Made by a program: the position numbers and the translations under genes. A stretch of DNA of 42,203 nt from a virus: IMG/VR virus record IMGVR_UViG_3300021511_000016, positions 1-42,203 of that record, one strand, 5' to 3'. Below, in pieces: positions 662 through 16,924 of the stretch (its first letter is position 1; every line of letters starts with the position of its first letter). The notes beneath the pieces were generated by a model that had not been told where the DNA came from, searched no databases, and saw nothing but the letters and a program-made list of their open reading frames with translations.

Positions 662-678
662 CACAAGTGAGATAACTA

Positions 679-707: not shown

Positions 708-708
708 A

Positions 709-1260
709 TTACTTTAGTCCTAGCCATTTGACAAAGGTGAGGAGCTTTAAGCCCACCTTTTCACCAAATGTTCCTGCTGTTGTGTGAGCTGAGGTCGCTT
801 CGTCCCAGACTGCACCAGCTATGTTGTCAAGATCTCCTTGACCTATGCTGGAAGCAGCATTGAATATCAAACCAGCGGAGTTCTGTGGAATTATCTGAGT
901 TGTCGTATTAGCCAAAATAGCGTTCTCAAGATCAAAGATATTATTATTAGAACCGGCAAGTCTTACTGAATATTGGGTATCAGGGTCAAAAAAAACCTCA
1001 TAAACATCAATATTGCTGGAATTAGTGCCATTTAATATTTCCACCTTTGGAGCATAAGTAACTCCAGCAACCGTATATTCAGCATTGTGGCTCTGCATAT
1101 CCTGAAAAACTATTCCGGTTTCTGCTGCTTCTAGTGCCTTTACGTCGTCCCAGAAAGCATCAGTATCTAGTTCATAGAGGGAGCCGCTGATTAAAGTCAA
1201 ATCAGCTTGCGGTATTTTTATTCTAAATGGTGAACTACTGTAATCAACTGTTATTGCCAT
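709..1260 (-). CDS. Virion protein of a common phage family, function unknown
   Basis: The protein has 183 aa. The N-terminal pattern IKIPQADLTLISGSLYELDT (about 14-33), then DAFWDDVKALEAAETGI and VAGVTYAPKVEILNG, is typical of a phage structural family found in many environmental phages, known only as a hypothetical protein. The C-terminal end (about 145-183) has GQGDLDNIAGAVWDEATSAHTT, a pattern often seen at the end of such proteins, and a hydrophobic tail. Its start overlaps the end of the 1244-1663 gene, which suggests coupled translation; no clear Shine-Dalgarno is visible. Confidence 0.65.
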   Translation of the reverse strand: MAITVDYSSSPFRIKIPQADLTLISGSLYELDTDAFWDDVKALEAAETGIVFQDMQSHNAEYTVAGVTYAPKVEILNGTNSSNIDVYEVFFDPDTQYSVRLAGSNNNIFDLENAILANTTTQIIPQNSAGLIFNAASSIGQGDLDNIAGAVWDEATSAHTTAGTFGEKVGLKLLTFVKWLGLK

Positions 1261-1663
1261 GTTTCTTTAAATATGCTCTAATCGCATCTCCTTTAAGACT
1301 CTGGCCATTAGCATTAGCCTTTTGTCGTTCTTTGTTTACTTTATTTAACTCTATCTGAACCATCTCATTATTCTCGTCCATAGCCTTCTTTGCCCTCTCT
1401 ACCATATCTTCTTTCTTGTCTATTAACTTGAGAAGTCCATTTCGTTCCTCTTGAATCAAATAAGCTGCGTGATTCATAGTAGAGGCCAGTTTCTCAAGAT
1501 ATTCAATTTTCTCTTTGTCGTTAAAACCTCCATATAATTTCCCCCACTTAATTTTAGGTGGCTTTTGAGAAATCAAATTACTATCAAGTTTCTTAAAGCC
1601 TTTTGCTATTAAGTCTTTTTGAAAATTGTCGTGTTTAACTTTAAGTTTTGCTTTACTATTCAT
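1244..1663 (-). CDS. Coiled-coil hypothetical protein
   Basis: This 139-aa lysine-rich protein has a long charged helix between about residues 50 and 120, with heptad-like spacing compatible with a coiled coil. No enzyme motif is visible. It overlaps both neighbours (8 bp with the adhesin gene upstream and 17 bp with the virion gene downstream), so it belongs to the late virion operon. A chaperone or assembly factor for the large adhesins is possible but unproven. Confidence 0.6.
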   Translation of the reverse strand: MNSKAKLKVKHDNFQKDLIAKGFKKLDSNLISQKPPKIKWGKLYGGFNDKEKIEYLEKLASTMNHAAYLIQEERNGLLKLIDKKEDMVERAKKAMDENNEMVQIELNKVNKERQKANANGQSLKGDAIRAYLKKHGNNS

Positions 1664-3536
1664 CTATAATTAACTGTACACTAACTTCCCTTCCATTGGC
1701 ACTATCAACCGTTATATCTAAAGGAAATGTCTTATATCTGGGAGAAGACGAGGACTTTCTTACATAACCAACAAGATTCTGGTCTGAACCGTAGGTTCTT
1801 GAGGTAGTAATATCTCCCCCAGAATCGGTTAATCCGTATATGGTGGCTCCTGTTACCTTAATTGTTCCTGTATAACTTGTAGAGCCAGAATCAGTAGTTG
1901 TGTAGCTATACTTGTTATCTGGGTCTACTCCATCTAAGGTTATCTGATGCGCCCCCCAATTATCCTCAACTTTATCAGTAATACCTTGTATATTTATATA
2001 TTCATTGTCTTTTAATCCATGTCCTGTGTGAGACACTGTAGCTGTTGTTCCTGACCTGGTAATAGAAGTAACCGTTTCTTCAAAAGGCAAATCTCCTGTA
2101 GCATCTTTGGCTTCCAAAAACACTCTGGCATTTTCAAGGTCATCTCCATTGTGGTCGTTTACATGAACTAGGGTTGCTACGGGATCTATAGACAAAGTAA
2201 CTGTTATTCCTGCTGCATCATCTACGCTGAAATTGCTTGTTGTAGCTGCTGCACCATCTACCGTACAATTTTCCAAAGACAGAGTAAGAGAGCCGCTTGT
2301 AGCTAAAAATCTAACTGTGGAATCATTTGCGTCATCTGTACTCCCAAACCCTGAGAAAGCTACGTTTCTCAGTGTCAAGCTGGAAGTAACACTGGTACCA
2401 AAATCTATGGCGTGGTGAGAGTTTGAACCCATCGAAAAAGTCGTACCATCAAGGTAAGTGTCTGTGTAAGCAGCATCTACATAAGCTGCACCAGTATCAG
2501 CGGCCACAGCTGACTCCAAAAAGTTAGACCCCTGCATATCACCCGTTGTAGTTACCTGTCCACAATTAAGAAAGGTACAAGTATCAATTGTTGCATTGGA
2601 ATCGAAAGAAAATGTACCCATATCAACAAACTGGCAAGTTGTCCAGGTCATTGTTGGATTATCGTTTGTAACCCACCTACCCTTACTTGTTGTTCCAAGA
2701 GCTTTTACAACTAAATTAGTAAAAGTAATTACCGAAGAAGCGTGATTACACTCCCAAGTGTGAAAATTAGAGGTAACGTGGTCATGGTCACGAAGGAAGA
2801 TAACCTTACTCTCATCATTAAATTCTACAGCGTTCGTAGAAGTGCCAAACTGTATAAGTCCAGAGTTTTCAAAAGCTCCTCCTGGCTCTTTTTGAACCAT
2901 TAATCCCCACCTGTTCGTAGCAGTTTCCAGATTGGTCATAATTCCATCAAATGTAGCTTCTGGGTCAGCACCAGTTCCGTATTCAATTACAATATCGTGT
3001 CTACCTTCACGAACTGTATCCAAAGAAATCGTTTCACCTTTACTTGGAGAACCCGCTGCTGTAGCGTCTGCCATTACACCAAAGGTTCGTTCTACCCCTG
3101 CTGTTGGGGAACCTGTAGTATTGTCCCCAGCAGTATCCTCATTTACACAAGCAAACAACCACCCTCCGAAAGGCACAGTGTCCGAACCGAAAACCTCATA
3201 ATGTTCATAAGCATTTGTAGCAGAACCAATAAGAACCTCTAACCCTTGTCCTGCTTTGGTATCTAGTGAAGGAATTGAGGTAAATGTTATCCAAAAAGAA
3301 TAAGCACCATCTGTTCCTGAACCACCTTGATCTGAACCGGTATCATAAATCATACCCTTCTGGTCTTGTCCGAAAGCGTCTTTAGTCATACTTTGAGTAT
3401 CTTCTATAAAAAGCTCGGTAGAACCAGGATTTAAAGCTGCGCCACCACCACCCAAAGCTGACCAATTGCTTGATGAAGCTGTCTGCGTATCATCTACTAT
3501 ATCTACTAAATTTGTTGTATACGTTGCTGTTGCCAT
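1656..3536 (-). CDS. Large virion adhesin with beta-helix-like middle
   Basis: A protein of 626 aa. Residues 1-250 look like a beta-sandwich (long threonine/serine-rich strands, with FWITFTSIPSLDT and GWLFACVNEDT). Residues about 260-430 carry repeated short strands of the type LTLRNVAFSGFG and SLTLSLENCTVDG, the pattern of a right-handed parallel beta-helix. The end (about 450-626) resembles a carboxypeptidase-regulatory-like or Ig-like fold, found at tips of virion proteins. A ribosome site AGAAGGA stands 5 nt before the start. A host-surface-binding fibre or spike is the likely role. Confidence 0.6.
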   Translation of the reverse strand: MATATYTTNLVDIVDDTQTASSSNWSALGGGGAALNPGSTELFIEDTQSMTKDAFGQDQKGMIYDTGSDQGGSGTDGAYSFWITFTSIPSLDTKAGQGLEVLIGSATNAYEHYEVFGSDTVPFGGWLFACVNEDTAGDNTTGSPTAGVERTFGVMADATAAGSPSKGETISLDTVREGRHDIVIEYGTGADPEATFDGIMTNLETATNRWGLMVQKEPGGAFENSGLIQFGTSTNAVEFNDESKVIFLRDHDHVTSNFHTWECNHASSVITFTNLVVKALGTTSKGRWVTNDNPTMTWTTCQFVDMGTFSFDSNATIDTCTFLNCGQVTTTGDMQGSNFLESAVAADTGAAYVDAAYTDTYLDGTTFSMGSNSHHAIDFGTSVTSSLTLRNVAFSGFGSTDDANDSTVRFLATSGSLTLSLENCTVDGAAATTSNFSVDDAAGITVTLSIDPVATLVHVNDHNGDDLENARVFLEAKDATGDLPFEETVTSITRSGTTATVSHTGHGLKDNEYINIQGITDKVEDNWGAHQITLDGVDPDNKYSYTTTDSGSTSYTGTIKVTGATIYGLTDSGGDITTSRTYGSDQNLVGYVRKSSSSPRYKTFPLDITVDSANGREVSVQLIIDE

Positions 3537-3759: not shown

Positions 3760-6288
3760 CTAGTAATCGTCAGTGCGCACAGCGGCTACAGTTTGAGCTG
3801 TTGATTTGAATTGTGCCGAATCCGACTCAAATGTTTTAATTGGTGTGCCTCCACCATCTCTTACTCGTACAAATAAATCTCTATCCGTTGTATCATGGAC
3901 ACCAGTGAAGGTTTCACTTCCTGCATCTGCCAACACATCAATAAATGCCATAAAAGCATTATTATCTACTGAAGCGTTATCCGAAGAAAAGCTCCAAGGA
4001 GCGCCAGCAGTATCAAATGTAAAGGTGTTTGTACCATTATGTGATTCGTAATCTACCCTTCTGTAAATACCAGAGTCTAGTTGTATTCTCAAAGACGAAT
4101 TTTCTGCCGCCAAACCAGAATCGGGCCAATTAATCTCTGTTGCTACAAAAGGAACTGTGTCTGTTCCTGTCTTAACAACAAGTACCGTTTCTGTTCCACC
4201 AGTAAGAGCTGTAGCAACTAACCACTGTCCTCTATCTAGCGATGTTCCATTTCGTGGACCAACTAGCACCCTGTCCTGTCCACTTATTAAACCTGAAACT
4301 GTGAACAATACGTTGTTAGGTGGTGTTCTGTCTGTATTTGAAAGGTCAAAGAACTTATCGTTTTCACCGACATCATCTTTATCAAAACCAATACCATAAG
4401 TTCCTATGATGTTTGAACCCGTAGATGTTCCAATAAACTCAGGATTAAGAGTTCGTGTAGTAATTGTGGAAGCGGCAGTAACATAGTCTGTTAAAGCATC
4501 AGTTCCCAACCCCGCTGTAGATCTAACCTCATTATTATCAACTGGATTTACACCTGAAATAACTTGGATATAAAGCTCTCCAGTTCCTGTATTATCATCT
4601 ATGGCAAGAGCATATCCGGAACCACCTGAATACTCCTCATCAGCTACAACTGTAATATTTGCATCAGCACCTGAAGTAACACCATAAATATCGTCTGTTG
4701 AAGCGATAACTGCTGCTGAAGGATTTTCCAGTGCAACAATCATGTCTGTTCCGTCATCAAAGAGAACTTGCCCTCCCGACTTTGGACTTGAGGTTGTTCC
4801 ATCAGCGTATATTGCAACATATTCACCTTCTCTGAAAGAGCCAGTTAGTCCGTTGTAAGTTATCCTTGTTCCCCAGATAAGAAGTTCGTCATTAGTTGCT
4901 TCTGTTTCAACTACTCCTGTTCCTGCTTCTGCATCATAAGCTACCTCTACATTAATGCCCTGGAAAACCTCTCCTGGTACACCGTGAATAACTGGAGATG
5001 ATTTGATTTCATGTCCAAAGTCTATTGTGCTAGAGCCTGTCCAAGAGGCGCCTGAAGAAGTTGCACCATCTTGACCTGAATCTTGGCTTGAACCATATTC
5101 AACCTCAAGATAGTTGGTTGCAGAACCGTCATCGTGTCTTAGTGCAATAAAGTATTGAGTAGAAGCGGTGAGTCTTAGCCCGTCAATTTGGTCTGCACCA
5201 GTAGCAGGATTGAATCTGTTGAATCTAAAGATAGTTTCCTCATAAGAGCTTGTAAAAGCTGATACAATAACATCTTCACTTCTAGCTAATACTGCACCAG
5301 TTGGAGCATCAGGGTTTCCTGTATCAGAAGCGTACAACTCTGCGTACACTGATCCTGTTAGTCCGGTTGTATCCTCTGCACCAATCTTGATTTGCCATCT
5401 TGATTCAGTTAGTAATTCAAGAGTTGCGTTGGAAGTAAACTGCATAGCAACACCATCGTTGGTTCCATTGTCTAATGTCTGATCTGAACCTGTTGGTGTT
5501 CCAGAAGTAATATAAGTTTGATGTGATCTTTGAGTAATCCACTTGGCTCTCTCGTAGACATCATTAACCTCAAGTGCTGCTTTGGTCCATTGTGAATAGT
5601 ATTCATTGACTCCTGCACCAGTACCATTTCCGTCAATATCAATTTGCTGGTATCCTTCTGTGTTAGTAATAGTTGTGTAACCTTCAAGAGTGCTATCTGT
5701 TTTCTCGTTGAATATATCAGCACCATTTGAAATAGCTGCAACGGAGTTTCCAGTTCCAAGAGTAACAGGGAATCTTCTGTATTGATCTCCAAGCTCTCTT
5801 GCCAATACAGTAATTCTTTGACCATCAATATCTGCTCCACCCTCCCTAGATTTAACAAGATGTCGTGAGAACACAAGTGAAGGTGAGGCTTCTGCATTAA
5901 TTCCAGTTCCCCAGAAAGCAGGTAAAACCTTACCACCCTGAAGGATCATGTACTCAGTTCCTGATTCAACTGGCCCTATGACTGCCAAGCCTGAATAGAT
6001 ATCATCTCCACCATTTTGAGTGACTGAACCATCATAAAGGTGGGTTGCGAAGGTGTCGTCAATATTAAATGGAGAATTGAGGGTAACTATCTGGTCCGTA
6101 GAACGATCAAATGGGGTTTCCACAGTAATGTCCAAGAGGTCATCACCAGCTGCTTGATCATCGTCCTGTTTATCCATCAACCATTGAATAAACTCCAAGA
6201 CAGTGTGTCTATTGGTTTCTTTCGCACCTTCCCAGCGGATATCTCCTGCTGCGTTGATTGATATGTCTGCGTCTGCTATTGCTGCCAT
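3760..6288 (-). CDS. Large virion structural protein, function unknown
   Basis: This 842-aa protein is rich in T, S, G and D with no transmembrane segment or signal peptide, as expected for a beta-structured virion protein. The N-terminal section (1-260) has a distinct pattern, DIRWEGAKETNRHTVLEFIQWLMDK style, found in large structural proteins of environmental podoviruses. The middle (about 265-440) resembles a jelly-roll module (WQIKIGAEDTTG, LTASTQYFIALRHDDGS). The C-terminal third is again strand-rich. It may be a tail spike or capsid-attached fibre. There is no clear Shine-Dalgarno at the start. Confidence 0.6.
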   Translation of the reverse strand: MAAIADADISINAAGDIRWEGAKETNRHTVLEFIQWLMDKQDDDQAAGDDLLDITVETPFDRSTDQIVTLNSPFNIDDTFATHLYDGSVTQNGGDDIYSGLAVIGPVESGTEYMILQGGKVLPAFWGTGINAEASPSLVFSRHLVKSREGGADIDGQRITVLARELGDQYRRFPVTLGTGNSVAAISNGADIFNEKTDSTLEGYTTITNTEGYQQIDIDGNGTGAGVNEYYSQWTKAALEVNDVYERAKWITQRSHQTYITSGTPTGSDQTLDNGTNDGVAMQFTSNATLELLTESRWQIKIGAEDTTGLTGSVYAELYASDTGNPDAPTGAVLARSEDVIVSAFTSSYEETIFRFNRFNPATGADQIDGLRLTASTQYFIALRHDDGSATNYLEVEYGSSQDSGQDGATSSGASWTGSSTIDFGHEIKSSPVIHGVPGEVFQGINVEVAYDAEAGTGVVETEATNDELLIWGTRITYNGLTGSFREGEYVAIYADGTTSSPKSGGQVLFDDGTDMIVALENPSAAVIASTDDIYGVTSGADANITVVADEEYSGGSGYALAIDDNTGTGELYIQVISGVNPVDNNEVRSTAGLGTDALTDYVTAASTITTRTLNPEFIGTSTGSNIIGTYGIGFDKDDVGENDKFFDLSNTDRTPPNNVLFTVSGLISGQDRVLVGPRNGTSLDRGQWLVATALTGGTETVLVVKTGTDTVPFVATEINWPDSGLAAENSSLRIQLDSGIYRRVDYESHNGTNTFTFDTAGAPWSFSSDNASVDNNAFMAFIDVLADAGSETFTGVHDTTDRDLFVRVRDGGGTPIKTFESDSAQFKSTAQTVAAVRTDDY

Positions 6289-6291
6289 GTT

Positions 6292-6477
6292 TTATGCGTA
6301 ATTAGCTTTTACTTTCTTTTCTTTTTTGTCTTGTTGAAATACTAAGGTCACTTTACCAGCTTTGGATTTTTTGAATCTTCCCCAATTAGTATAAATGGCC
6401 TTATCCTTACTTTTATACTGTTTAGTCAGTTCAACTTTCAGTACTTTCTGTTTTGCTTTTGATTTCTTCTTTGCCAT
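6292..6477 (-). CDS. Small lysine-rich protein
   Basis: The protein is 61 aa long and starts MAKKKSKAKQ (an upstream in-frame extension is rejected because it runs through the preceding gene). Almost one third of residues are lysine, with few acidic residues. It could bind DNA or an acidic partner such as the neighbouring acidic virion proteins. Its start lies just past the stop of the 6479-6874 gene. No known family is recognised. Confidence 0.55.
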   Translation of the reverse strand: MAKKKSKAKQKVLKVELTKQYKSKDKAIYTNWGRFKKSKAGKVTLVFQQDKKEKKVKANYA

Positions 6478-6478
6478 T

Positions 6479-6874
6479 TTAAAATGCGTCGTTGTAATCG
6501 CCGTAAGTAAGTCCTGCTCTATTCGTCCAAGCGTCTGAGTAACTTGTAACTGCACCGTTATTCGCTACAGTTGCGTGTTGTACTGTAAGATCAGAGCTTT
6601 CGTCTACCTCTTGAACGTACCAAGCACCTGACATTGATTCCTTACCTACATATGTTAAAGTTGCTGATGCTTCTTCTAAATCGTTAGTTGAAAAACCGGC
6701 TGCTGCCTCAGATGTAACTAACTCTCCATCTGCGTTTACTTTTAGTCTCACCTTTTGAGTGCCGTTTGAGTCCCACCCATAGAGTAGAACTCGCTTTGTA
6801 GGAGGAGCCGAACTATCTTCGTGTTCCTCTTTCGCAACCTCCGGAAAATACTTTATTGTTTTATTTGTTGCCAT
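6479..6874 (-). CDS. Virion-associated protein of a common phage family
   Basis: A protein of 131 aa. The pattern RVLLYGWDSNGTQKVRLKVN (about 28-47), then DLEEASATLTYVGKE and SGAWYVQEVDESS, is a family often seen in environmental phage structural operons, of unknown exact role. The true start is the ATG at 6872-6874; the longer reading frame runs into the U-tract of the leader hairpin. Eight T directly precede the ATG, and the only SD-like bases (AAAGGG) are inside the hairpin. Confidence 0.65.
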   Translation of the reverse strand: MATNKTIKYFPEVAKEEHEDSSAPPTKRVLLYGWDSNGTQKVRLKVNADGELVTSEAAAGFSTNDLEEASATLTYVGKESMSGAWYVQEVDESSDLTVQHATVANNGAVTSYSDAWTNRAGLTYGDYNDAF

Positions 6875-6898
6875 AAAAAAAAGCAACCCTTTGGTTGC
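6875..6898 (-). terminator. Leader hairpin with U-tract abutting a start codon
   Basis: On the minus strand a 6-bp stem (6893-6898 with 6883-6888) and eight T (6875-6882) run straight into the ATG at 6872-6874. Placed downstream of the promoter at 6923-6951, it forms most of the leader of the next gene. Confidence 0.75.
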
Positions 6899-6919
6899 CC
6901 CCCATGTGAGTAACTGTAT

Positions 6920-7099
6920 TTAAGCATACTTTGTTTTATTTTTCAAGTCAAGTATGATTTTTTCAATCGCTTTGTCCACTTTTTGAGATGTTTTGCTCCT
7001 TTTTGACACACCCATGTAGGATTTGAGTAATTTTTTAAACGTCTTTGGTTTGATTTCAACAAACACGTCCTCGTCGTTGTAAATTATTGCTATTCTCAT
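6920..7099 (-). CDS. Small basic protein, function unknown
   Basis: This 59-aa protein starts MRIAIIYNDEDVFVEI and continues as a lysine-rich helix (about 18-57). Its ATG overlaps the stop of the upstream gene in the form ATGA (7096-7099), which points to coupled translation and supports it as a real gene despite its size. The end of the gene contains the late promoter for the next unit. No family is recognised. Confidence 0.6.
   Translation of the reverse strand: MRIAIIYNDEDVFVEIKPKTFKKLLKSYMGVSKRSKTSQKVDKAIEKIILDLKNKTKYA
6923..6951 (-). promoter_or_regulatory. Late promoter (TTGACT-17-TATGCT)
   Basis: The -35 TTGACT (6946-6951) and -10 TATGCT (6923-6928) are separated by 17 bp, overlapping the end of the 6920-7099 gene. 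A start near 6916 gives a leader of about 42 nt that contains the hairpin at 6883-6898. The bases after the -10 include TTACTCAC, shared with the region downstream of the capsid gene. Confidence 0.5.
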
Positions 7100-7473
7100 T
7101 GTTCCATAGCTCTTGCTTTTGCTTCTAATATCTCAGCTTGGCTTCTAATTTTCACATATCTATACATGTTATCTATATCAGAGTCTCCAATATTGGGAAA
7201 GCCAAGTCTGTACTTTATATTTTTCAAAACATTAACAACTTGCAACTCGTCTCCACCCCCTGTTTGTCCTGCCGCCCAATTATAAATAGTGGACAACTTC
7301 TCCCGCAATTCGGAATTTATCTTAACTGGAGGTACTTTAAAAAATGCTGACATCAAATCTAATCCTAATTCCGATTCGTCTGGTTTTTCAGCAGATTTAG
7401 GAATCTCAGGATTTGGATCGTGCTTTACTCTTACTTTTATTCCCGCTCCTTTTAGCGGAGATGATTTGTCCAT
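7096..7473 (-). CDS. Hypothetical protein
   Basis: The protein has 125 aa from the ATG at 7471-7473 (MDKSSPLKGAGIKVRV); a longer reading from a GTG at 7495-7497 is possible. It overlaps the end of the glycosyltransferase gene by 68 bp in another frame. It has an N-terminal basic stretch, a proline-rich linker (about 20-40) and a helical second half ending ILEAKARAMEQ. It is not recognised. It follows the decoration cassette and precedes virion genes, so it could belong to either. Confidence 0.55.
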   Translation of the reverse strand: MDKSSPLKGAGIKVRVKHDPNPEIPKSAEKPDESELGLDLMSAFFKVPPVKINSELREKLSTIYNWAAGQTGGGDELQVVNVLKNIKYRLGFPNIGDSDIDNMYRYVKIRSQAEILEAKARAMEQ

Positions 7474-8551
7474 AAGCCTTAGTCCACAGTTTAGCACACT
7501 TTTCAGCGTCTCGATTAGTTTTTACCCACTTTAGAGCTGCTTTTCCTACATTTTTTCGAACCTGTGGCTTTGTTAGAAGCGTTTTAAGGGCCTTATAAAA
7601 TTGTTTTGGTGTATTATATGCCAAAGCTGTCACTCCCGGATTGATTTCTTCTTTGTATGGCGTAATATTGCTAACAACCGATGGAATTTCCAGAGCCGCC
7701 ATCTCATACCATTTAATTGCCGACTTGTAATAATTAAAAGGCAAATCTGCTAATGGAATAATTGCAGCATCTAATCTAAATGTTGCCATGCGGTATGGGT
7801 GCGCTTCAAATGGTACCCAACCAAACGCCTCTACCAAATGCTTGTTGTCATCATCTATTAGACCCGGAAAGTGAACACCAATGAAATACATCTTAAATTT
7901 AAACTCTCTTAGCAACTGATTTAATGGTTCCTTGATAGTATATAAATCCTCATAATGTGAAGACCCCCCAGCCCATCCAACCCTCAACTGCTTGTTCGGC
8001 TTTAAAGGTAAAACCTTCCAATTTTCAAAGTTTATACAATTTGGCAAAATAGTTACATTTCTATTATATTGCAAAGCATATTCTGCCAATTTTGGCGTTG
8101 TCACCGTAACCAGATCAACAGCATTGAGTCCTTTTAAATGATGTTCCATCCTTTTTCTATTCTCCTCTCTGTCCCAGCCCAACTTCCCATCTTTCCAAAG
8201 CCACTCTTTAGCATTTTTATCATAAAATTCCTCAACACCATATTCCCTATAATGAGCTGAATATGGAGAAATTATTTCAACATTGTCATCTATGTCCATT
8301 ACAATCTTTGCTGTTAGATTCTCAAGTCCTGGTATTTTAAGGATTTGAGCCAAGCCATCCTCCGCACCAGGCCGCATAAGAATAATATCAGACATAACAA
8401 AGGCTCTTACAACATCTTCCATTACATCCTCGTTCTTATCTATGATATGGACATCGTGTTTTGTGTACTTTTTAATCAGACTAAGTGGCTGTCTGACTCG
8501 ATACCAGCCACATCCACCCATATCTACCGGCAAGCTTAAAACTTTAATCAT
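7406..8551 (-). CDS. GT-B fold glycosyltransferase (GT4-like)
   Basis: This 381-aa protein is predicted to transfer a sugar from a nucleotide-sugar donor. The N-terminal half has the Rossmann start MIKVLSLPVDMGGCGWYRVRQP and an acceptor-side fold with MDIDDNVEII. The second half has LRVGWAGGSSHYEDL (about 189-203) and the donor-site-like stretch SAIKWYEMAALEIPSVVSN (about 297-315) with the conserved acidic residue in KWYE, followed by the usual C-terminal helix cap. The length is normal for the family. It starts in an ATGA overlap with the sulfotransferase gene. The acceptor is unknown, and a virion protein or host glycan is inferred from position in the late operon. Confidence 0.8.
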   Translation of the reverse strand: MIKVLSLPVDMGGCGWYRVRQPLSLIKKYTKHDVHIIDKNEDVMEDVVRAFVMSDIILMRPGAEDGLAQILKIPGLENLTAKIVMDIDDNVEIISPYSAHYREYGVEEFYDKNAKEWLWKDGKLGWDREENRKRMEHHLKGLNAVDLVTVTTPKLAEYALQYNRNVTILPNCINFENWKVLPLKPNKQLRVGWAGGSSHYEDLYTIKEPLNQLLREFKFKMYFIGVHFPGLIDDDNKHLVEAFGWVPFEAHPYRMATFRLDAAIIPLADLPFNYYKSAIKWYEMAALEIPSVVSNITPYKEEINPGVTALAYNTPKQFYKALKTLLTKPQVRKNVGKAALKWVKTNRDAEKCAKLWTKAYGQIISAKRSGNKSKSKARSKS

Positions 8552-9048
8552 TTTACAAAATCCTTTATTAATTTAATTAATCTCTTATTATAAGTATCAT
8601 ATATTTTACCACTCCTGTCAGAAGTAAAATTATCCCGCCTTTTCAAGCTTTCAATAACCCTATCTCTTTTTCTAAATATACAAACCAAATAAACATCATC
8701 TTCCATCAAGTCCAACCAACCCTTTCCTGTAATACAATTCCTAGGATCTTTAAATCCCCACATCTTAGATTTGTACTTATCAACCAAATACTTCATCTGC
8801 GGTTTCTCCTCTTTCATAATCTTATTTACAACTTTAGCCGGAGGAGGCTCTGTCCAAGTCCCCTTGCCCTTACTGATAATAAAAGAGTTCATTACTTGAA
8901 AATCTCTTGTTTCAAATGTTGGTTTATCATCAGCTACAATCTTTATTCCAATAGCTTTAAGGGCTTTAGAAAGCATAGAGGTTCCAGACTGGTGCATGCC
9001 AGCTACAAAATATGTCTTTGGTGATTTATCCCTGATTCGGATTGTCAT
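8548..9048 (-). CDS. Sulfotransferase-like P-loop protein
   Basis: A protein of 166 aa. The phosphosulfate-binding loop is seen as AGMHQSGTSMLSKAL (about 16-30), the form found in the bacterial sulfotransferase family rather than in Walker A kinases, and WGFKDPRN (about 97-104) matches the second conserved element (KDPR). It is shorter than most sulfotransferases (about 250-300 aa), so substrate binding may be reduced or the enzyme may be a minimal type. It overlaps the SDR gene by 23 bp and the GT gene by ATGA, so the three are translated together. Sulfation of the same glycan is the natural reading but unproven. Confidence 0.7.
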   Translation of the reverse strand: MTIRIRDKSPKTYFVAGMHQSGTSMLSKALKAIGIKIVADDKPTFETRDFQVMNSFIISKGKGTWTEPPPAKVVNKIMKEEKPQMKYLVDKYKSKMWGFKDPRNCITGKGWLDLMEDDVYLVCIFRKRDRVIESLKRRDNFTSDRSGKIYDTYNKRLIKLIKDFVK

Positions 9049-9754
9049 ATTGTTTTTTTATCCAATAATATGAACCTGTCGGTAAAGTTCCATTAAACAT
9101 AAAACCAACAATTTGAGCAACATTTTCCGGGGAAAGTCTTGTAGCCACATCTTCTTGCGGAAAAAGTGCATGCCGGTACTGTGTATCAACCCTTGAAGGA
9201 CAAACAGAATATGCTTTTACCTCAGGTCTTTCCTCTGCTATTGCTTGGGTAAGTGTTATAACTCCTACCTTTGATATTGTATAGGCAGACCAGTCCTTAT
9301 AACTATCAAGAGTTGGCCTGGAACTCATATTTACCATTACTCCACCATCGTTCATAAACTCGGAAGCCTCTTTAGTAAGAAGAAACATTGAATCAAGATT
9401 GTAACCCATTACTTCTTTCCACCTTGCAAGAGTGGTATTTCTTATACTTTTCTTTTCATACATCCCGACATTATTAAAAACATAGTCTGCGGACTTTATT
9501 TCTCTCCAAACACCTCTAACACCATTTGGAGTAGTCAGGTCAGCTTTAATAACTCTATGCGGTAATTCTGCGGAAATCCTACCTGTAACTATTGTTTCTG
9601 CTCCCAACTCTTTGCACATATCAGCAACTGCAAGTCCAATACCTTTTGTACCACCAGCCACAAACAACCTTTTGTCTTTCATATCTGGTAGCCATTGATG
9701 CTCAACACCAATTTCCGGCTGACAAAATACTTTTTCCCGTTCAAAATAGCTCAT
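9026..9754 (-). CDS. Short-chain dehydrogenase/reductase (SDR)
   Basis: This 242-aa protein is a classical SDR. It has the dinucleotide motif VAGGTKGIG (about 32-40), NNVG (94-97, in place of NNAG), a catalytic serine in NMSSRP (about 144-145), and YTISK (158-162) with catalytic Tyr and Lys. The length is typical. The substrate cannot be told from sequence. Next to a TagD-like cytidylyltransferase and a LicD/fukutin-like transferase, reduction of a sugar phosphate to an alditol phosphate is attractive, as in CDP-ribitol synthesis, but this is inference. A residue-25 methionine is an alternative start. Confidence 0.8.
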   Translation of the reverse strand: MSYFEREKVFCQPEIGVEHQWLPDMKDKRLFVAGGTKGIGLAVADMCKELGAETIVTGRISAELPHRVIKADLTTPNGVRGVWREIKSADYVFNNVGMYEKKSIRNTTLARWKEVMGYNLDSMFLLTKEASEFMNDGGVMVNMSSRPTLDSYKDWSAYTISKVGVITLTQAIAEERPEVKAYSVCPSRVDTQYRHALFPQEDVATRLSPENVAQIVGFMFNGTLPTGSYYWIKKQYDNPNQG

Positions 9755-9778
9755 ATAATATAATCTTTTAAGTAAGCT

Positions 9779-10204
9779 TCAAAGGTCACCATTTTCTATT
9801 CCTTTTTTAATTGAACTTGTTGATATTCCTTCTGTGTAGGGAACATAGACAAGTTCTATTCCTAAGTATTCCAGATCCTCTGGTGTCATTTCCATCTGCT
9901 TGTAATAATCCTTTTTAACCCAATCAGTACCGACAACCAATATGCAGGGAGCCAATTTTTGCATTTGCTTCCTAAAACCGTATCTAGTATTCTTTAGCAC
10001 TTGAACGACATAAGTGCTAGATTCTAGTATCTTTTTTCTGTGTTTGTAAGGAAATGCTGGTTTCTTTTTATATTCAGTTACAAATTCATCTGTATTTAAA
10101 AGGACTGTAACGCCCTTTCCATCAGATATGGCATTACATCTTTCCAATAACTTTACATGACCATAGTGAAATAAATCAAACACTCCTGCTGTTACAACTC
10201 TCAT
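9779..10204 (-). CDS. TagD-like nucleotidyl (cytidylyl) transferase
   Basis: A 141-aa protein that should join CTP with a small phosphate ester (glycerol-3-phosphate, phosphocholine or similar) to give a CDP-activated compound. The family signature HxGH is HYGH (13-16) after VTAGVFDLF, GTDW lies at about 92-95, and the C-terminal motif is TEGISTSSIK (124-133). The usual Arg just before this last motif is Tyr here, a small departure. The length is that of TagD. The start is chosen at 10202-10204, overlapping the LicD stop as ATGA, with a good ribosome site (GGGAGG) before it. Pairing with LicD argues for a CDP-dependent transfer. Confidence 0.82.
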   Translation of the reverse strand: MRVVTAGVFDLFHYGHVKLLERCNAISDGKGVTVLLNTDEFVTEYKKKPAFPYKHRKKILESSTYVVQVLKNTRYGFRKQMQKLAPCILVVGTDWVKKDYYKQMEMTPEDLEYLGIELVYVPYTEGISTSSIKKGIENGDL

Positions 10205-10827
10205 AAGTCCTCCCAAAGCGTCAAATGATTCGCATCCTTTACCCAATCATCTTTTTTCTTCTTAGGTGTTTTCCAATCCTTTCCAAATCTCCACTCCAAG
10301 AACTTTTCAAGCGGCTTAGGTGTCGGATAAGTAACTCCTTTAAATTTTATCTTTCCCAACTTCTTTATGAATTTCAATGGTTTTTTTATTATTCCTTCAG
10401 CACTCCAATTAATACCAAAATCATACCCAGGATATTCATGATAAAAATAAATATCAAACAAGACCTCATGGTTATTCTGATCCATAAAAACCATCTGCAT
10501 CGGTCTGTTTTTTACAACCGTTGTATAAACACAAGGCATTGATACTCTAGCCATTTTTCTTGTAAGCTTCTTTACCTGTTTATAAACATCCCAATATATA
10601 TCAACCAGTACGCAAATATCTATATCAGTATCATGATCTATTAACTTCTTGTCCCTATAAATTCCCAACAAGTTTCCGGAAGTGATCCAATAATGATATC
10701 CCAACTCCTCCAATATTTTACAACCCCGCTCCATAGTCTTTTCAGCATTTTTCCCTTTAATATCTGTAACTTTAAAAGAGAAATGTTTTCTTGTAACTAT
10801 ATCGCTTTTTTTAATATCCGGTATCAT
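10201..10827 (-). CDS. LicD/fukutin-family phosphotransferase
   Basis: The protein has 208 aa. The diagnostic core ITSGNLLGIYRDKKLIDHDT (about 48-67) running into DIDICV gives the SGxLLGxxR and DxDxD elements of the LicD family, a nucleotidyltransferase-like fold that moves phosphocholine or alditol phosphate from a CDP carrier to a glycan. Known members include LicD (phosphocholine) and human FKRP/fukutin (ribitol phosphate). The start at 10825-10827 makes an ATGA overlap with the upstream gene. The CDP donor is probably made by the adjacent cytidylyltransferase. The acceptor is not known. Confidence 0.8.
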   Translation of the reverse strand: MIPDIKKSDIVTRKHFSFKVTDIKGKNAEKTMERGCKILEELGYHYWITSGNLLGIYRDKKLIDHDTDIDICVLVDIYWDVYKQVKKLTRKMARVSMPCVYTTVVKNRPMQMVFMDQNNHEVLFDIYFYHEYPGYDFGINWSAEGIIKKPLKFIKKLGKIKFKGVTYPTPKPLEKFLEWRFGKDWKTPKKKKDDWVKDANHLTLWEDL

Positions 10828-11189
10828 ATTTTTTTCACCACCCACCAGGGTTTTACCAATTCATGCTGTGCGGCTTTTTTAAAAATCTTCTTGTCTGTTA
10901 GCCAATCTGGACCATACAGTGTCGTCAAAACAGTATTAACAAAATCATAGACATGTGCATTTGGAAATTCCAATATTTTCTTACGAACATTACCTTTACT
11001 TCCTTTTTCAAACTCTCCTGATTTTCTCCAGCCACGGTAGATAGAAGCTATTTCCGGGTCGTTATAAACACGATAAATTTGTTCTCTTATCTTCTTGTTG
11101 TATTTATCTGCTAAGGCATTGAGCGACATCCTTAATCTAAGATCTGGAGTTACTTCGGAGTATCCATCAGTTTTACTCTTACTTGACAT
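10824..11189 (-). CDS. Hypothetical protein heading the decoration cassette
   Basis: This 121-aa basic protein is not recognised. It has a helical N-terminal half (LRLRMSLNALADKYNKKIRE) and a compact C-terminal part with several aromatic residues (YGPDWLTDKK, PWWVVKKI). It is the first gene after the capsid gene and its terminator-like hairpin, and is coupled to the LicD gene by ATGA. It may act with the cassette, but nothing in the sequence proves it. Confidence 0.55.
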   Translation of the reverse strand: MSSKSKTDGYSEVTPDLRLRMSLNALADKYNKKIREQIYRVYNDPEIASIYRGWRKSGEFEKGSKGNVRKKILEFPNAHVYDFVNTVLTTLYGPDWLTDKKIFKKAAQHELVKPWWVVKKI

Positions 11190-11221
11190 ATATTCATAGT
11201 ATCATAAAGAAACATAAAATG

Positions 11222-11247
11222 AAAAGAGGCGCAGATGATAGCGCCCC
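11222..11247 (-). terminator. Hairpin with U-tract downstream of the major capsid gene
   Basis: A 7-bp GC-rich stem (11241-11247 with 11226-11232, one G-T pair) is followed on the minus strand by TTTTCATTTT. It probably lowers or ends read-through from the highly expressed capsid gene into the decoration cassette. A weak extended -10 (TGG-TATAGC) lies upstream near 11270. The rest of 11190-11284 holds nothing else that I can see. Confidence 0.7.
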
Positions 11248-11284
11248 TTAGTATAGTGAGTAATAAAGCTATACCAGACTTCTT

Positions 11285-12178
11285 TTAGCTTGATGCAAGT
11301 GTAGTAATCTGACCACTTGCGGCTTCGTTTCTCGATTGCAAGGTAAGCTCGCCGACTAACGCTCCACGCCTAGAGTCTGAGACATTTGCAACATCTTCAA
11401 CTTTAATACCTCGGAGCATAGCCACGTTCCACATGTCCCTTTGCAGAACTGCAACAACAGTTGCGGTCATGAAAGGATCAAGCTCTATTCGCTGCACACC
11501 GAAATCTGAGTAGTAAACAGAGACATAATTTCTAAGTTCACCATCAGCTTTCATTTCTACGTACCTGGTATTCTCAGATGAGAAAGCAGATATTTGCCTC
11601 TTTTGGTAACCATTTACATAAGTGTAATCCGGTCTTCCACCAGCTGTCCAAATTGTTTGCAAAAGATCATTGTACATATCTTCTGTCAAAGCGTCTGCCG
11701 AACCAGTACCAGTCTCTACGTTTGTAGTCATGTAAGCAAGAATACCTTTAAGTTCTCTTGCTGTACCTGAAGCACCCGAATTACCAGTTCCAGTAATAAG
11801 TGCTGCTTCTACGTCGGTTGCAATTTCTTTCATCCTTTTCTCCAATTGATATTGGAACTCGTCTTCAAGACCTGCAACTGAGACTGCCCTTTGAGTTTCA
11901 GAAACCTCAATGGTTTTGCTGAAAATCTGGGTATAGTTACCGTCTCGTGTTCTAACGGCCGGAAGTGCAAATGCGAAATCTTGACCCTCTTTTTGGGCGT
12001 TTGCACTACCTGTATCGAGTGTGTCAATTTGCCACTCATGATAAGTAGCTCTTGCTTGTGCTTTTCCGAAACCAGAGAACAAAGGAGTTTCATGGCGTGT
12101 AATTGTAGAAATTAAGTCAGTTAAATCCTCCCTATCACCAACGGCTAAATAGGTTCCTAGTGCTGTAGCTGTAGCCAT
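11285..12178 (-). CDS. Major capsid protein, SU10 type
   Basis: A 297-aa protein forming the head shell. The N-terminal pattern DLTDLISTITRHETPLFSGF (about 17-36) followed by HEWQIDTL and SKTIEVSETQRAVS is the hallmark of the SU10-like HK97-fold capsid family of short-tailed phages. The C-terminal part has DMWNVAMLRGIKVEDVA and LQSRNEAASGQIT, also typical. It has the strongest ribosome site of the region (GGGAGGTGA, 8 nt from ATG), as expected for an abundant protein. It lies just downstream of the scaffold gene in the usual portal-scaffold-capsid order. Confidence 0.9.
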   Translation of the reverse strand: MATATALGTYLAVGDREDLTDLISTITRHETPLFSGFGKAQARATYHEWQIDTLDTGSANAQKEGQDFAFALPAVRTRDGNYTQIFSKTIEVSETQRAVSVAGLEDEFQYQLEKRMKEIATDVEAALITGTGNSGASGTARELKGILAYMTTNVETGTGSADALTEDMYNDLLQTIWTAGGRPDYTYVNGYQKRQISAFSSENTRYVEMKADGELRNYVSVYYSDFGVQRIELDPFMTATVVAVLQRDMWNVAMLRGIKVEDVANVSDSRRGALVGELTLQSRNEAASGQITTLASS

Positions 12179-12197: not shown

Positions 12198-12953
12198 TTA
12201 GCTGGTCTTGAGGGCTTTTTTAGTAATACGCTTTAACAATGTGTTCTTTGCAGCGGTGTCACCTTCTAAAACTGCCTTTTTAAGGTCTGCATCACTAACA
12301 CCAGCCTCCGCCCCTGTACCTGTGGAAGCTTCTGTCTGAATACCTTCTGATTTGTTCAGGGCTTGCTTGATTTGCCAGTCCGTCAACGCTTTTTCGTTCA
12401 GTATCTTGTATGCGGCTTCAGGATCACCTATTTGTCTATCAAGAGCAAATTTTACAACCTTATTCTTATCAAACTTAGGTCTTCCGTCCTCTCCGTCGTA
12501 TACGTTCTCTAACCGAGATAGTTCCTGTTTTAGAGCGTCATCATCATCTTTCTGACGCAGCATTTCCTGAACTTCCTCTCTTGGTACAAATCCCATTTCC
12601 TCGATGGTCTTTTTGATCTGTTCTTTTTGAGCTAATCCTGGCGCACCAGAAGTTTGCTCTTGAGAAGTAGATCTACCTTCAAGTTCTTGGACTTTTGCTT
12701 CCAATTCAGCTACTTTCTTGCGCTCTGCATCTCTTTGTTGTCTGAACTTACTCAGACGAATAGAATAATTCTCAGGCGCACCACTATCCACTTCGGTATC
12801 AGCAGCGCTTGCCGACTCCTCTGCTTCAGTAGCCGTTTCTTTCCCGCCTGACGATTCAGCGACAGGGGTATCGGTTTCCCCCGTGGTTGGTGTAGGAGCA
12901 GAATCGCCACCTTCACCGACCCTTACGTCTTCGCCCTGTGATTCATCTTTCAT
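12198..12953 (-). CDS. Scaffold protein
   Basis: This 251-aa, highly acidic N-terminal protein (residues 1-60, with many E, S, T and D) has a central coiled coil (about 65-95 and 110-150) and a basic C-terminal end (KNTLLKRITKKALKTS). This charge layout and the position directly between portal and major capsid genes are those of phage scaffolding proteins, which guide shell assembly and leave. The ribosome site AAAGGGGGTGA before the start is strong. Confidence 0.8.
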   Translation of the reverse strand: MKDESQGEDVRVGEGGDSAPTPTTGETDTPVAESSGGKETATEAEESASAADTEVDSGAPENYSIRLSKFRQQRDAERKKVAELEAKVQELEGRSTSQEQTSGAPGLAQKEQIKKTIEEMGFVPREEVQEMLRQKDDDDALKQELSRLENVYDGEDGRPKFDKNKVVKFALDRQIGDPEAAYKILNEKALTDWQIKQALNKSEGIQTEASTGTGAEAGVSDADLKKAVLEGDTAAKNTLLKRITKKALKTS

Positions 12954-13078: not shown

Positions 13079-14992
13079 TTAACCTCCAGGATTTGTTTGT
13101 TGAGCTACTGTTGCTCTAAAAACTTGTATTGCTCTAAGTGTTGCAGAGTCTAAGCTTTGTGCTTCCTCTGACTCAAGATACTCATCAATGTAAGCTATAA
13201 AATCAGCTCCAACAGCTTGTGGAGGTTGCGGCTCCGCGCCATTAACTATTGCTTTGAGTGCTGCTATTGCCTCTAACCTTCCACTTGGCACTGGGCCTGC
13301 CGGTTGAGGATTTGATTGATTTGCTACTTCTATTTGAGTTGCAGCATTTTCGAGCTTCTCTTTTCTGGTCTTTTGAATAACCTGTGAAACCGAACCAATA
13401 TTATACCCTTCCAATAAAGTTTCTTGGTCAATTGCTTGTAACTGGTATAGCTCTTTTAAGACTTCACGCTTTGCCTCATTAGTCTGAGCAAGCCAGGAAG
13501 TAATCTTAACATCTACAATATTGTTTGGTTTAATGACAAGCGCACCTTCTGGCTTATTGCTGGCACTTGAACCGATCACCTTTGTAAATTCCCTTTGCCC
13601 GCCGGTTGTAACAGTAATAACATTTCTGGCAAACTGGTATTTCTTTGATGCTAAGTAAAGAACATATTCATATACTTCCTCCAAAAACTCCTCCACGTTC
13701 TCAACTACTTCTGAGAGGTTATTCATGTCTCCTATTTGAAGCGCTTCCACACCTCTACCTGACTTAACGCCGGTCGGAACCCTGCCAAGCATCGCATCAT
13801 GGCTTCCACCAATATCCTCAATGTATCTATTAACGTTCTCAATCTGTTTAAAGATAACAGCAGACAGTGGCCGGATATCTGCCTGGTTCACATCAAAACC
13901 CCGCTTTTTCTCAATTATTTGTCCGTGTGCATTATTAATAATCCTAACTCCTGCATTTTTATCAGCCACCCACTTACCCTTATTCATAATATCGTTCCAC
14001 TCGGCAATCGAAGATTCCAACCTATCCAAAAGCTTATTGGGAGAAATAAGGTTCTTAACCCAGCCTTGCCCATACATTGAAAGAGGTTCAATATCTGAAC
14101 TGAGTCTGAAGAAAGGTATTCTATCAACCTTGGCATCTTCGGGTTGTCTGATTATTCTATTCCCGGCAACAGCGGCAATCATTATCTTGGGAACTTTCCT
14201 GGTCTTTTTAACTTTCTTTTTACCAACCTTTTCCTCGTATTCCTCGTCTTCATAAGATCTATACCAGTGTTCTCTGACAATTACTGTTTCACCCTCTTTG
14301 TCCTCATTGAAATCTGACATCCCTTTCTCTGATTGAAGAAATCTTGCTTTTAATGACGAAGCAGACAAAAGATCATCCGTCTTCATATCATCAGGAATAT
14401 CATACTTTGGATCCCTTCTTAGGTCTTCCACATTTCTTCTAACTGCCAAAATTGCATATCTTGCCTCTGAAGGGTCTCTTGCTACCGGATCCCAATATAG
14501 ATCATATGGGTCTACTTCATTTACAACAATTTCTTTTTTTACATTATCAAAAAGTACCTGCCAATAACCCACTGAATATTTCAGCGCATGCCAAAGGGTT
14601 CCTTTAAGTTTCCTTCTAAGGCGCTGTTTATCATGAAAAAAGTCCAGGAACCTGTTTAGCTTATTTGTTTCTTCAACATTTTCTTCTGTCAGGTCATCTG
14701 GGGTTGCTTCTGCACGGGGTCTGCTTCTTAGTACAAAGTTCCTAACTGAACGAAGCGTGGAAAATACTTTGTTAATTACTATCTTTACTTGCCCTTTTTC
14801 TTTAACAGAGGAAACTATTTGCTGGGTATCATTGTCCCACCTGGCATAATGATTACCAGATACAAACAGATCATAAGTAAACCACTTCCAGTCAAACTCA
14901 TTACGATTATTCTGCGCAGATTGCCACTCCCTGTCCAAGCGAGCCTTTAATGCGCTGTCTTGTTTAATTTCCTTCTCCTTCTTTTTCGCCAT
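13079..14992 (-). CDS. Portal protein, P22-like
   Basis: A 637-aa portal, the dodecameric ring at the head vertex through which DNA is packed and ejected. The N-terminal half has WKWFTYDLFVSGNHYARWDN and VINKVFSTLRSVRNFVLRSR, and then VNEVDPYDLYWDPVARDPSEA (about 155-175), a pattern typical of P22-like portals. The crown/helical part includes GSHDAMLGRVPTGVKSGRGVE. The last third is helical and Q/A-rich. The length is normal. The gene starts inside the end of the preceding small membrane-protein gene. Confidence 0.88.
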   Translation of the reverse strand: MAKKKEKEIKQDSALKARLDREWQSAQNNRNEFDWKWFTYDLFVSGNHYARWDNDTQQIVSSVKEKGQVKIVINKVFSTLRSVRNFVLRSRPRAEATPDDLTEENVEETNKLNRFLDFFHDKQRLRRKLKGTLWHALKYSVGYWQVLFDNVKKEIVVNEVDPYDLYWDPVARDPSEARYAILAVRRNVEDLRRDPKYDIPDDMKTDDLLSASSLKARFLQSEKGMSDFNEDKEGETVIVREHWYRSYEDEEYEEKVGKKKVKKTRKVPKIMIAAVAGNRIIRQPEDAKVDRIPFFRLSSDIEPLSMYGQGWVKNLISPNKLLDRLESSIAEWNDIMNKGKWVADKNAGVRIINNAHGQIIEKKRGFDVNQADIRPLSAVIFKQIENVNRYIEDIGGSHDAMLGRVPTGVKSGRGVEALQIGDMNNLSEVVENVEEFLEEVYEYVLYLASKKYQFARNVITVTTGGQREFTKVIGSSASNKPEGALVIKPNNIVDVKITSWLAQTNEAKREVLKELYQLQAIDQETLLEGYNIGSVSQVIQKTRKEKLENAATQIEVANQSNPQPAGPVPSGRLEAIAALKAIVNGAEPQPPQAVGADFIAYIDEYLESEEAQSLDSATLRAIQVFRATVAQQTNPGG

Positions 14993-15273: not shown

Positions 15274-15549
15274 TTATTTCACTTTTTTTGATTCAGTCTT
15301 GTTTTCAACTTTTATTGCGAACCCGTCTTTATGTACTTCACGACTCGTCATTTGCTGAGTATAGTATACATGATTAATCTTTCCTCTTTGGTAAGTGATC
15401 TTTATTTCTCCAAAGGCTGATTTATCTGCCATATCCAGCATTTTATATATAGTTTCCCAAAGAAATTTGTCCCATTTACCCAATTGATGCAATTTATAGA
15501 TCTTAGGGAAATACACCTCCAAATCTTTTTCGAATTTAGTTTTTTCCAT
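15274..15549 (-). CDS. Hypothetical protein after the large terminase
   Basis: A 91-aa protein starting MEKTKFEKDLEVYFPKIYKL (the longer reading overlaps terminase in another frame and is rejected). It has an N-terminal helical region and a C-terminal part of short strands (GEIKITYQRGKINHVYYTQQ). It overlaps the end of the terminase gene by 14 bp. The function is unknown. Confidence 0.6.
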   Translation of the reverse strand: MEKTKFEKDLEVYFPKIYKLHQLGKWDKFLWETIYKMLDMADKSAFGEIKITYQRGKINHVYYTQQMTSREVHKDGFAIKVENKTESKKVK

Positions 15550-16924
15550 ATATAGGATCATCCCAGAAATCGTCCGAGTCATCTTCAAAAAAGTCCTCGC
15601 GTATATTCTTGTTTGTCCAATCGGATTTTGAAGGCTTAATGTAAGTGCCGGGAATTTTCCCCTCAAGGGGATCTGTTATCCTTGGTTTGTATTCGTGCAT
15701 ATACATGGCATTAAGATCAGCCAAAGCATCCATCATATGATCATCTTTTTTAACAGGCATCTCGTCATCCCTTCTATCTTCTTTTTTTTCAGGATACATA
15801 TAATGTTCAAATTCAAATACAGTAAATTTACACTTCGGATCCACATAAAATCCTGTTTTTCCACGCTTATCTACTTTAAGCCTATCAGCAAATTTCTCTA
15901 TTTTCCACCTAACATAGTTTTTATTTATCTCCCCCGATTCCTTTTTAACAGGAATAAAGTCTACCCCCAAATCTGCCAAGTCCTTAATATCACTGGTATT
16001 GGCAGAATCAGCTGTTGCATACTCAACATTTATACCGTTTCGGGTCTGTTTGACCATTTCTGCCAATTCAGGATTGGTTAGACCCGCCTGATAGATCTCT
16101 CCATACTGGTACCATACATCATCCTTATTCACAGCGATGAGTGGTACAGCAGAAGGATTCCTGAATCCTCTATCCAAACCTTGAAGGTAATAAATGGGGT
16201 CGAATTTCTTCAAATCAAATTTCTTGACATGAAATTCTCTGCTAAATTCTTTATAAACAGCACCAACAAATGTCTCAAACTCCGCAAGGTATTCTTGTCT
16301 CCAATATCCTTCTACGACCTCCTCACGCTTTTTTTCCAAATAATCAACCGGTAAATGAGGATTATCATAGCTTGTAAACTTCCATGACACATAATCCTTG
16401 TCTTTTTTGTCTTGTCCTTTCATATACATATCAAAGAAGTGGTTGTACCCAAAAGGCGTGGAAATAAAAAGAGCCTTACCCCGCCTGAATATCAGGGTGG
16501 GTCCCAAAATAGCTTCCCAAGCATACTGAAAATTCCTCATCTGGGAAACTTCATCCAATACAAGAAAATCAAATTGTTGTCCACGAGCAGTTTCTACGTT
16601 CTCCCACCCTCTTAAAGTTATTCTGGAGCTTCCCCCCTCTTTATTTTTTATTAACAATTCCAAACGAGACTCATTAGGTTGCTTAACCCATGCCGCTTTA
16701 GAATAAGTTTTCAACATCTCCCAAGCAATATTCCTGGCTTGGTCAAAGGTTGTAGCAAAATAAGCAATCTCAGCATTGTTTTTAGCATAAGCATAAGCAA
16801 CCATCTCTAAAACAGCGAGAGTAGTCTTTCCCCACTGCCTTCCACAATTAACAACCCTGTATGGAGCATCACTAACAGCAACCTTTTTTTGTGTTGTATG
16901 TAATTCAAAGGATTTAGCAGCCAT
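15536..16924 (-). CDS. Terminase large subunit
   Basis: The 462-aa DNA-packaging motor. The ATPase part has Walker A GRQWGKTT (28-35), Walker B LVLDE (121-125) and the coupling motif ISTP (154-157). The nuclease part has GLDRG (249-253), ATADSANTSDIKDL, and the last acidic cluster KDDHMMDALADL near residue 405. All key residues are present and the length is normal. The start at 16922-16924 lies 11 bp after a TATAAT box with no matching -35. It is separated from TerS by a 278-bp non-coding gap rich in inverted repeats. Confidence 0.92.
   Translation of the reverse strand: MAAKSFELHTTQKKVAVSDAPYRVVNCGRQWGKTTLAVLEMVAYAYAKNNAEIAYFATTFDQARNIAWEMLKTYSKAAWVKQPNESRLELLIKNKEGGSSRITLRGWENVETARGQQFDFLVLDEVSQMRNFQYAWEAILGPTLIFRRGKALFISTPFGYNHFFDMYMKGQDKKDKDYVSWKFTSYDNPHLPVDYLEKKREEVVEGYWRQEYLAEFETFVGAVYKEFSREFHVKKFDLKKFDPIYYLQGLDRGFRNPSAVPLIAVNKDDVWYQYGEIYQAGLTNPELAEMVKQTRNGINVEYATADSANTSDIKDLADLGVDFIPVKKESGEINKNYVRWKIEKFADRLKVDKRGKTGFYVDPKCKFTVFEFEHYMYPEKKEDRRDDEMPVKKDDHMMDALADLNAMYMHEYKPRITDPLEGKIPGTYIKPSKSDWTNKNIREDFFEDDSDDFWDDPIYGKN

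Follow-up and report, generated by a model that had tools for sequence, protein, structure and literature searches.

Gene content of the operon

IMG/VR virus record IMGVR_UViG_3300021511_000016 is a metagenome-derived stretch of 42,203 nt, analyzed here over its whole length (the window), and it carries among its virion genes a run of five enzyme genes that may serve to decorate the phage particle. The five lie together on the minus strand at positions 7406-10827 and are predicted to encode, in order, a LicD/FKRP-type phosphotransferase of the nucleotidyltransferase fold (208 aa, 10201-10827), a TagD-like cytidylyltransferase (141 aa, 9779-10204, with an ATG start inside a longer TTG open reading frame [ORF]), a classical short-chain dehydrogenase/reductase (SDR; 242 aa, 9026-9754), a short sulfotransferase (ST; 166 aa, 8548-9048) of the type that uses 3'-phosphoadenosine 5'-phosphosulfate (PAPS), and a soluble GT-B glycosyltransferase (GT; 381 aa, 7406-8551). 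The genes are tightly packed. LicD overlaps the preceding 121-aa gene (o121, 10824-11189, minus strand) by 4 nt and shares a 4-nt ATGA with the TagD-like gene (stop 10203-10201, start 10204-10202); the remaining junctions are +24 (TagD/SDR), -23 (SDR/ST) and -4 (ST/GT). No hydrophobic membrane stretch was found in any of the five enzymes, so the reaction is probably cytosolic, the compartment in which the virion proteins are also found.

A sequence-only reading of this DNA had recognized the five genes from short motifs, and all of these (GNLLGIYR...DTDID, HYGH...TEGISTSS, GGTKGIG...YTISK and GMHQSGTSM...KDPR) are present in the ORFs. The enzyme classes it named, their catalytic residues and the coupling of the genes are borne out by profile matches, the LicD fold and the overlaps. 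It had also put the operon right behind the capsid gene, which is not accurate: o121, a conserved gene, and a terminator-like hairpin (11224-11249, minus strand; 9-pair stem with 6 G-C pairs and a T-rich tail) intervene between the major capsid protein (MCP) gene and LicD. The hairpin is weak, the region containing 2 such structures against 3.2 expected in shuffled sequence. Late expression, part of the same reading, is suggested by gene order, that is, by the position within the structural block.

Enzyme assignments

The LicD assignment is weak by Pfam alone and, in the predicted model, clear by fold. PF04991 scores the protein at 20.2 bits with hmmscan (cut-off 22.6) and at 24.5 bits in a six-frame search of the genome, and a sequence comparison with FKRP, the human ribitol-5-phosphate transferase, gives E 1e-4. 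An AlphaFold2 model built from 32 viral sequences has a mean pLDDT of 94.8. Its top matches among solved structures are all FKRP, including the complexes with CMP and CDP-ribitol (Foldseek 2e-8), and VIA aligns it to FKRP over 168 residues (Z 15.2, rmsd 3.2); the next fold families are LnuA and MenT1. The features of an FKRP-like fold are all found: a nucleotidyltransferase fold, Gx(3)G..R, DxDxD and a fourth Asp. The corresponding residues G51, G55, R58, the metal Asp triad D66/D68/D70 and D125 are invariant across the six closest relatives.

The TagD-like protein belongs to the HxGH cytidylyltransferase superfamily, as shown by its PF01467 (CTP_transf_like) match (5e-17, 62.9 bits against a cut-off of 21) and by its HYGH and TEGISTSS signatures, which align with those of the Bacillus subtilis glycerol-3-phosphate cytidylyltransferase (1coz, 4e-20). 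A further match is to 5x3d (1e-14), a phosphoenolpyruvate (PEP) phosphomutase entry that we take to be the cytidylyltransferase domain of Fom1. The SDR matches PF00106 (adh_short) at 1e-26 (94.1 bits, cut-off 26.6) and SDRs in the PDB at 4e-16, and it has the GGTKGIG stretch and catalytic S145, Y158 and K162 of the classical family.

The sulfotransferase had to be assigned through its relatives, the protein itself having no Pfam, PHROG or NCBIfam match. A single-sequence query found no relatives in the viral scan, while an alignment-based scan found 70, the best at 42% identity; identity to bacterial sulfotransferases and their relatives is 26-29%. H19, S24, E46, K100, P102, R103, R126 and S134 are invariant in 38 viral sequences, and both the 5'-phosphosulfate loop (GMHQSGTS) and the R/S residues for the 3'-phosphate (R126/S134) are placed as in sulfotransferases, with E46 and KDPR between them. 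The structural model (pLDDT 93.9) does not discriminate: the best VIA match, to tyrosylprotein sulfotransferase (Z 9.7), is tied with adenylate kinases (9.0), and by Foldseek alone adenylate kinases come out ahead of sulfotransferases. The fold is therefore compatible only, and we favor a sulfotransferase because the profile of the relatives matches tyrosylprotein sulfotransferases at 5e-7.

The glycosyltransferase matches phrog_7162 (5e-36); its matches to Pfam glycosyltransferase families fall below the cut-offs. Profile matches include PglA (1e-10) and TarM (5e-5). The EX7E motif of the GT4 type is absent: E283 is invariant, but the residue eight positions before it is Y275, and the motif reads FNxxKS(x5)E. 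Full-length relatives are found in the viral contig L027 (52% identity) and in Arthrobacter phage Mimi (27%), which has a gene for a TagD-like enzyme nearby.

The structural block and related phages

Nearly all genes of the window lie on the minus strand, and the structural block runs TerL (15536-16924), portal (13079-14992), a scaffold-like gene assigned by position (12198-12953), an SU10-type MCP (11285-12178, minus strand; PF17236, 4e-84), o121, the five enzymes and then more virion genes. The portal protein had no match among 50,697 phage records. The best matches of the MCP, at about 36%, are to phages of several hosts.

Recurrence of the genes in other phages had been set as a test of the sequence-only reading, and L027, an IMG/VR contig of a distantly related phage, has most of them in the same slot. 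Its order is TerL, portal, scaffold, MCP, o121 (40% identical to that of the window), LicD, SDR, TagD, GT-B, o133 and o135, so that SDR and TagD are swapped relative to the window and the sulfotransferase is missing. The four shared enzymes are 45.5, 40.1, 37.0 and 51.9% identical between the two genomes, and the SDR, at 40% identity, preserves its catalytic Ser, Tyr and Lys; a scan with the window SDR yielded no locus beyond L027. TerL, portal, scaffold, MCP and o121 are 40-57% identical. Since the enzymes have diverged about as much as the head genes, the module has probably been kept by selection since the common ancestor. Gene comparison thus suggests that LicD, TagD, SDR and GT form a core that probably dates back to an ancestor common to L027 and the window and stayed intact, that SDR and TagD changed places, and that the sulfotransferase is an add-on, gained or lost. 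We do not regard such a cluster as due to chance. Three genes behind the GT, L027 also encodes a virion-region protein (10503-11822) that contains an extended Ser-Pro repeat (SPSxSPS) and might accept glycans; its relative in the window is without such a stretch.

The same slot holds other genes elsewhere. In L024, which shares 66% MCP identity with the window, o121 (38%) is followed by a GT-B, a methyltransferase and a GT-A; because this set differs, the slot appears to be a cassette site. In a more distant relative, L026 (MCP about 43%), a LicD-TagD pair lies upstream of the head genes, and behind the MCP stand a methyltransferase, a relative of the window GT-B (37%) and an epimerase-like gene. 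L017 carries GT, LicD, an epimerase-type SDR and TagD consecutively. Capsid-adjacent cassettes also occur in unrelated phages, in the order MCP-GT-GT-TagD-connector (L006, L007, L009 and L010), MCP-GT-LicD (L030), MCP-GT/LicD fusion-TagD-connector (L086) and MCP-GT-A-ST (L184 and L141). In the first group, joined by L012, the two glycosyltransferases are GT-B and GT-A and there is no LicD; the GT frames of L012 are interrupted.

LicD-TagD linkage in viral contigs

Searches with single LicD sequences reached few relatives. The window LicD matched only four records, all of S-CAM7, among the 50,697 phage records; two other viral LicD proteins gave no tblastn match to the phage records, and a single-sequence query of the viral scan gave none. 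A profile scan of IMG/VR detected 107 LicD relatives, of which 80 were kept and 77 had a recognized LicD ORF. A TagD-like ORF is present in the fetched flanks of 48 of the 77 loci. The two genes lie within 100 nt of each other, often overlapping, at 29 loci (L026 included), and LicD precedes TagD at 23 of these; with near-duplicates collapsed, 23 of 69 distinct LicD genes have a TagD-like partner within 100 nt. Up to 500 nt from LicD, TagD-like ORFs occur at 3.83 per 10 kb; beyond 3 kb the density is 0-0.03. Linkage of LicD to TagD is thus general in viral contigs. A six-sequence LicD profile found 19 loci in bacterial genomes, few of them close.

Among 100 neighbors of the viral LicD-TagD pairs, GT2 glycosyltransferases, methyltransferases, PEP mutase, NeuB and SDR recur, company that resembles that of surface-glycan genes. 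The neighbors include four PEP mutases and three thiamine-pyrophosphate enzymes, and some phages may make phosphonates and attach them. For the window phage, phosphonate of its own is unlikely because no PEP mutase was found among the window proteins scanned. A Sulfotransfer_3 gene is present in a few LicD records. In record G048 (L063), the joined frame of the SU10_MCP match at 6064-7704 contains 6 TGA, 3 TAG and 18 TAA, which may point to an insertion or to a capsid gene that has been interrupted.

Other features of the genome

A direct terminal repeat (1-127 and 42077-42203, 126 of 127 bases identical) indicates that the phage genome, of about 42.08 kb, is probably complete and its map circular or terminally redundant. 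The genes at 39842-42140 would then come after those at 112-3536. A possible second decoration cluster (40023-42140, minus strand), which on a circular map would come after the tail region has ended, comprises two S-adenosylmethionine methyltransferases (41478-42140 and 40868-41488; Pfam Methyltransf_11, 7e-7 and 1e-10) and a GT-A-like protein (40023-40871) that aligns with capsid-adjacent GT-A-like proteins of L141, L184 and L188 and has EQD at the DxD position. The tail region also encodes a 1099-aa protein (33705-37004) with three lectin-like Laminin_G_3 stretches and recurring SDDVEVSE-type repeats.

Proposed pathway and its acceptor

Gene content, motifs, the LicD fold, the sulfotransferase family and the conservation of the four-enzyme core are the basis of the following scheme, whose substrates, order of steps, timing and acceptor are proposed. 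The TagD-like enzyme would join CTP to a small alcohol phosphate (glycerol phosphate, ribitol phosphate, phosphocholine or similar) to give a CDP-linked donor. The SDR would probably make or trim either the sugar or the small molecule; reduction of a keto-sugar phosphate, for instance, would yield an alditol phosphate. The GT-B would place a sugar on the acceptor, and LicD would attach the alditol or amino-alcohol phosphate of the CDP donor to that sugar in phosphodiester linkage. In the window phage the sulfotransferase would add sulfate from host PAPS. This is in essence the chemistry suggested by the sequence-only reading, and it is plausible. The likeliest acceptor would be a virion protein encoded in this late gene block, in parallel with the mycobacteriophages whose capsids are glycosylated.

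A virion target is our best guess in view of the cytosolic enzymes, the structural block, the swappable capsid-adjacent slot, the repeated cassettes in unrelated phages and the demonstrated glycosylation of capsids, and of tail tubes, in mycobacteriophages (Freeman et al. 2023, as cited in PMC12619734 and PMC11256854). Detection of a cytidylyltransferase in the particle proteome of cyanophage S-SZBM1 (PMC9146016) is suggestive at most. Several observations weigh against it. Contrary to expectation, LicD is not enriched near the MCP: among the 13 records in which both were found, the contigs being fragments, 7 had the two close together and 5.9 were expected (P=0.34), and several phages have LicD far from the MCP. 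Examples of capsid-adjacent GT, LicD, TagD and ST genes are seen elsewhere, and we do not count a general association of LicD with the MCP as evidence. The slot behind MCP and o121 may simply tolerate insertions. The substrates are loosely constrained, for the SDR and also for the TagD-like protein, which scores 79.9 bits with TIGR01518, short of the 165-bit equivalog cut-off of the glycerol-3-phosphate cytidylyltransferases, and so is related to TagD without being classed with it. Nor is a fixed five-gene pathway, as first proposed, supported: four enzymes recur in L027, but with the same profiles no LicD or TagD gene turned up at any of the 70 viral ST loci. The sulfotransferase therefore belongs to a separate association, GT-A plus ST, which is also found behind the MCP (L184, L186, L188 and L141). 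Overall we put a cytosolic pathway acting on the virion at just short of an even chance. We are more tentative still about the wider proposal that tailed phages build a CDP-dependent, teichoic-acid-like or dystroglycan-like phosphodiester glycan on the capsid, here sulfated, with exchangeable capsid-adjacent cassettes varying the chemistry of the virion surface.

The strongest competitor, which we rate as less likely, is that the same enzymes modify a precursor of a host surface glycan or glycolipid (teichoic-acid-like or lipopolysaccharide) in the cytosol, which would prevent superinfection or hide the dying cell. Characterized bacterial LicD/LicC and TagD pathways work on envelope polymers. 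For LicC this is documented (PMC6697681), and a host wall target was proposed by the authors who reported phage licD (PMC8008677). NeuB and PEP mutase, which stand beside viral LicD-TagD pairs, are typical of surface glycans, and in two bacterial contigs (L119 and L120, from Verrucomicrobiaceae and Proteobacteria metagenome-assembled genomes) inspection by eye shows LicD, TagD and a choline-kinase-like kinase in a row. Set against this, the structural-block position suggests expression at a time when remodeling the host is of little use, the cassettes swap at a capsid-adjacent slot, and the five genes are without an accompanying flippase, polymerase or membrane protein. A passenger cassette with no phage function, caught at a permissive site, would explain why slot content varies between L024 and L027 and why LicD is not enriched near the MCP; this is improbable, given four intact genes that, despite deep divergence, are about as well conserved as the head genes.

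It is harder still to credit that LicD is a MenT/AbiEii-like nucleotidyltransferase modifying RNA, as a toxin or in counter-defense, with unrelated neighbors. MenT1 does follow FKRP and LnuA in the fold searches (VIA Z 11.6), but FKRP is clearly better (Foldseek 2e-8 against 2e-4, with the higher VIA score given above), genes of the LicD family are linked to one for a cytidylyltransferase, whose product would be the donor, and the defense scan gave no PADLOC match. Least probable is an operon for a hypermodified DNA base carrying a sugar or phosphodiester. Phage glycosyltransferases often act on DNA (PMC12619734), but no pyrimidine hydroxymethylase, base kinase or other hypermodification enzyme was found among the other window proteins scanned, and the cassette sits with virion genes, not replication genes.

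Comparison with known systems

The sequence-only reading held that this was not a described phage system. That stands for the five-gene combination: the capsid-linked operon of LicD, TagD, SDR and GT (with or without ST), its recurrence, and a general viral LicD-TagD linkage were not found in the searched literature, most subscription papers lying outside the search. It does not stand for its parts: one of the papers found describes licD next to an ispD-family cytidylyltransferase gene in Flandersviridae gut phages (Benler et al. 2021, PMC8008677), and giant viruses have annotated LicD proteins. Environmental viral contigs often show the linkage, yet the window LicD reaches only the S-CAM7 entries among the phage records. 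Few phages are known to glycosylate their virions, and as far as found the additions are sugars only; a LicD/TagD module acting on the particle would add phosphodiester-linked head groups, possibly with sulfate here, and would thereby affect particle charge, adsorption and recognition. Even with a host-envelope target, a widespread viral module for CDP-alcohol phosphotransfer would be under-described.

The Flandersviridae genes resemble those of the window in that LicD and a cytidylyltransferase-family gene are adjacent in a tailed phage. They differ in that the enzyme is of the IspD type, the pair lies in the replication module in some members of one family, the proposed target is host teichoic acid, and no SDR, GT or sulfotransferase is mentioned alongside. 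Mycobacteriophages that encode glycosyltransferases carry capsid and tail glycans, but the citing texts describe sugars only, with neither CDP-alcohol phosphotransfer nor sulfation. In cyanophage S-CAM7 (KU686213) a LicD-family gene stands beside glycosyltransferases and a sulfate-activating adenosine phosphosulfate kinase; that cluster is just upstream of a tail fiber gene instead of the capsid gene, with nucleotide-sugar enzymes in place of TagD and SDR. Phosphonate tailoring by PntC and LicD-like transferases (PMC6697681) likewise uses a CMP-activated head group and a LicD-like transferase, and some viral LicD neighbors are PEP mutases, an enzyme that the scanned window proteins lack. A further parallel is the LicD/FKRP pathway of the bacterial lic operon and of human ISPD-FKTN-FKRP, in which a cytidylyltransferase makes a CDP-linked small alcohol and an enzyme of the LicD/FKRP fold moves the phosphate ester to a glycan. 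The window LicD matches FKRP in fold and in its Asp residues; its partner, however, is a TagD-type (HxGH) cytidylyltransferase instead of the LicC/ISPD type, and the two are set in a phage operon with an SDR, a sulfotransferase and a GT-B.

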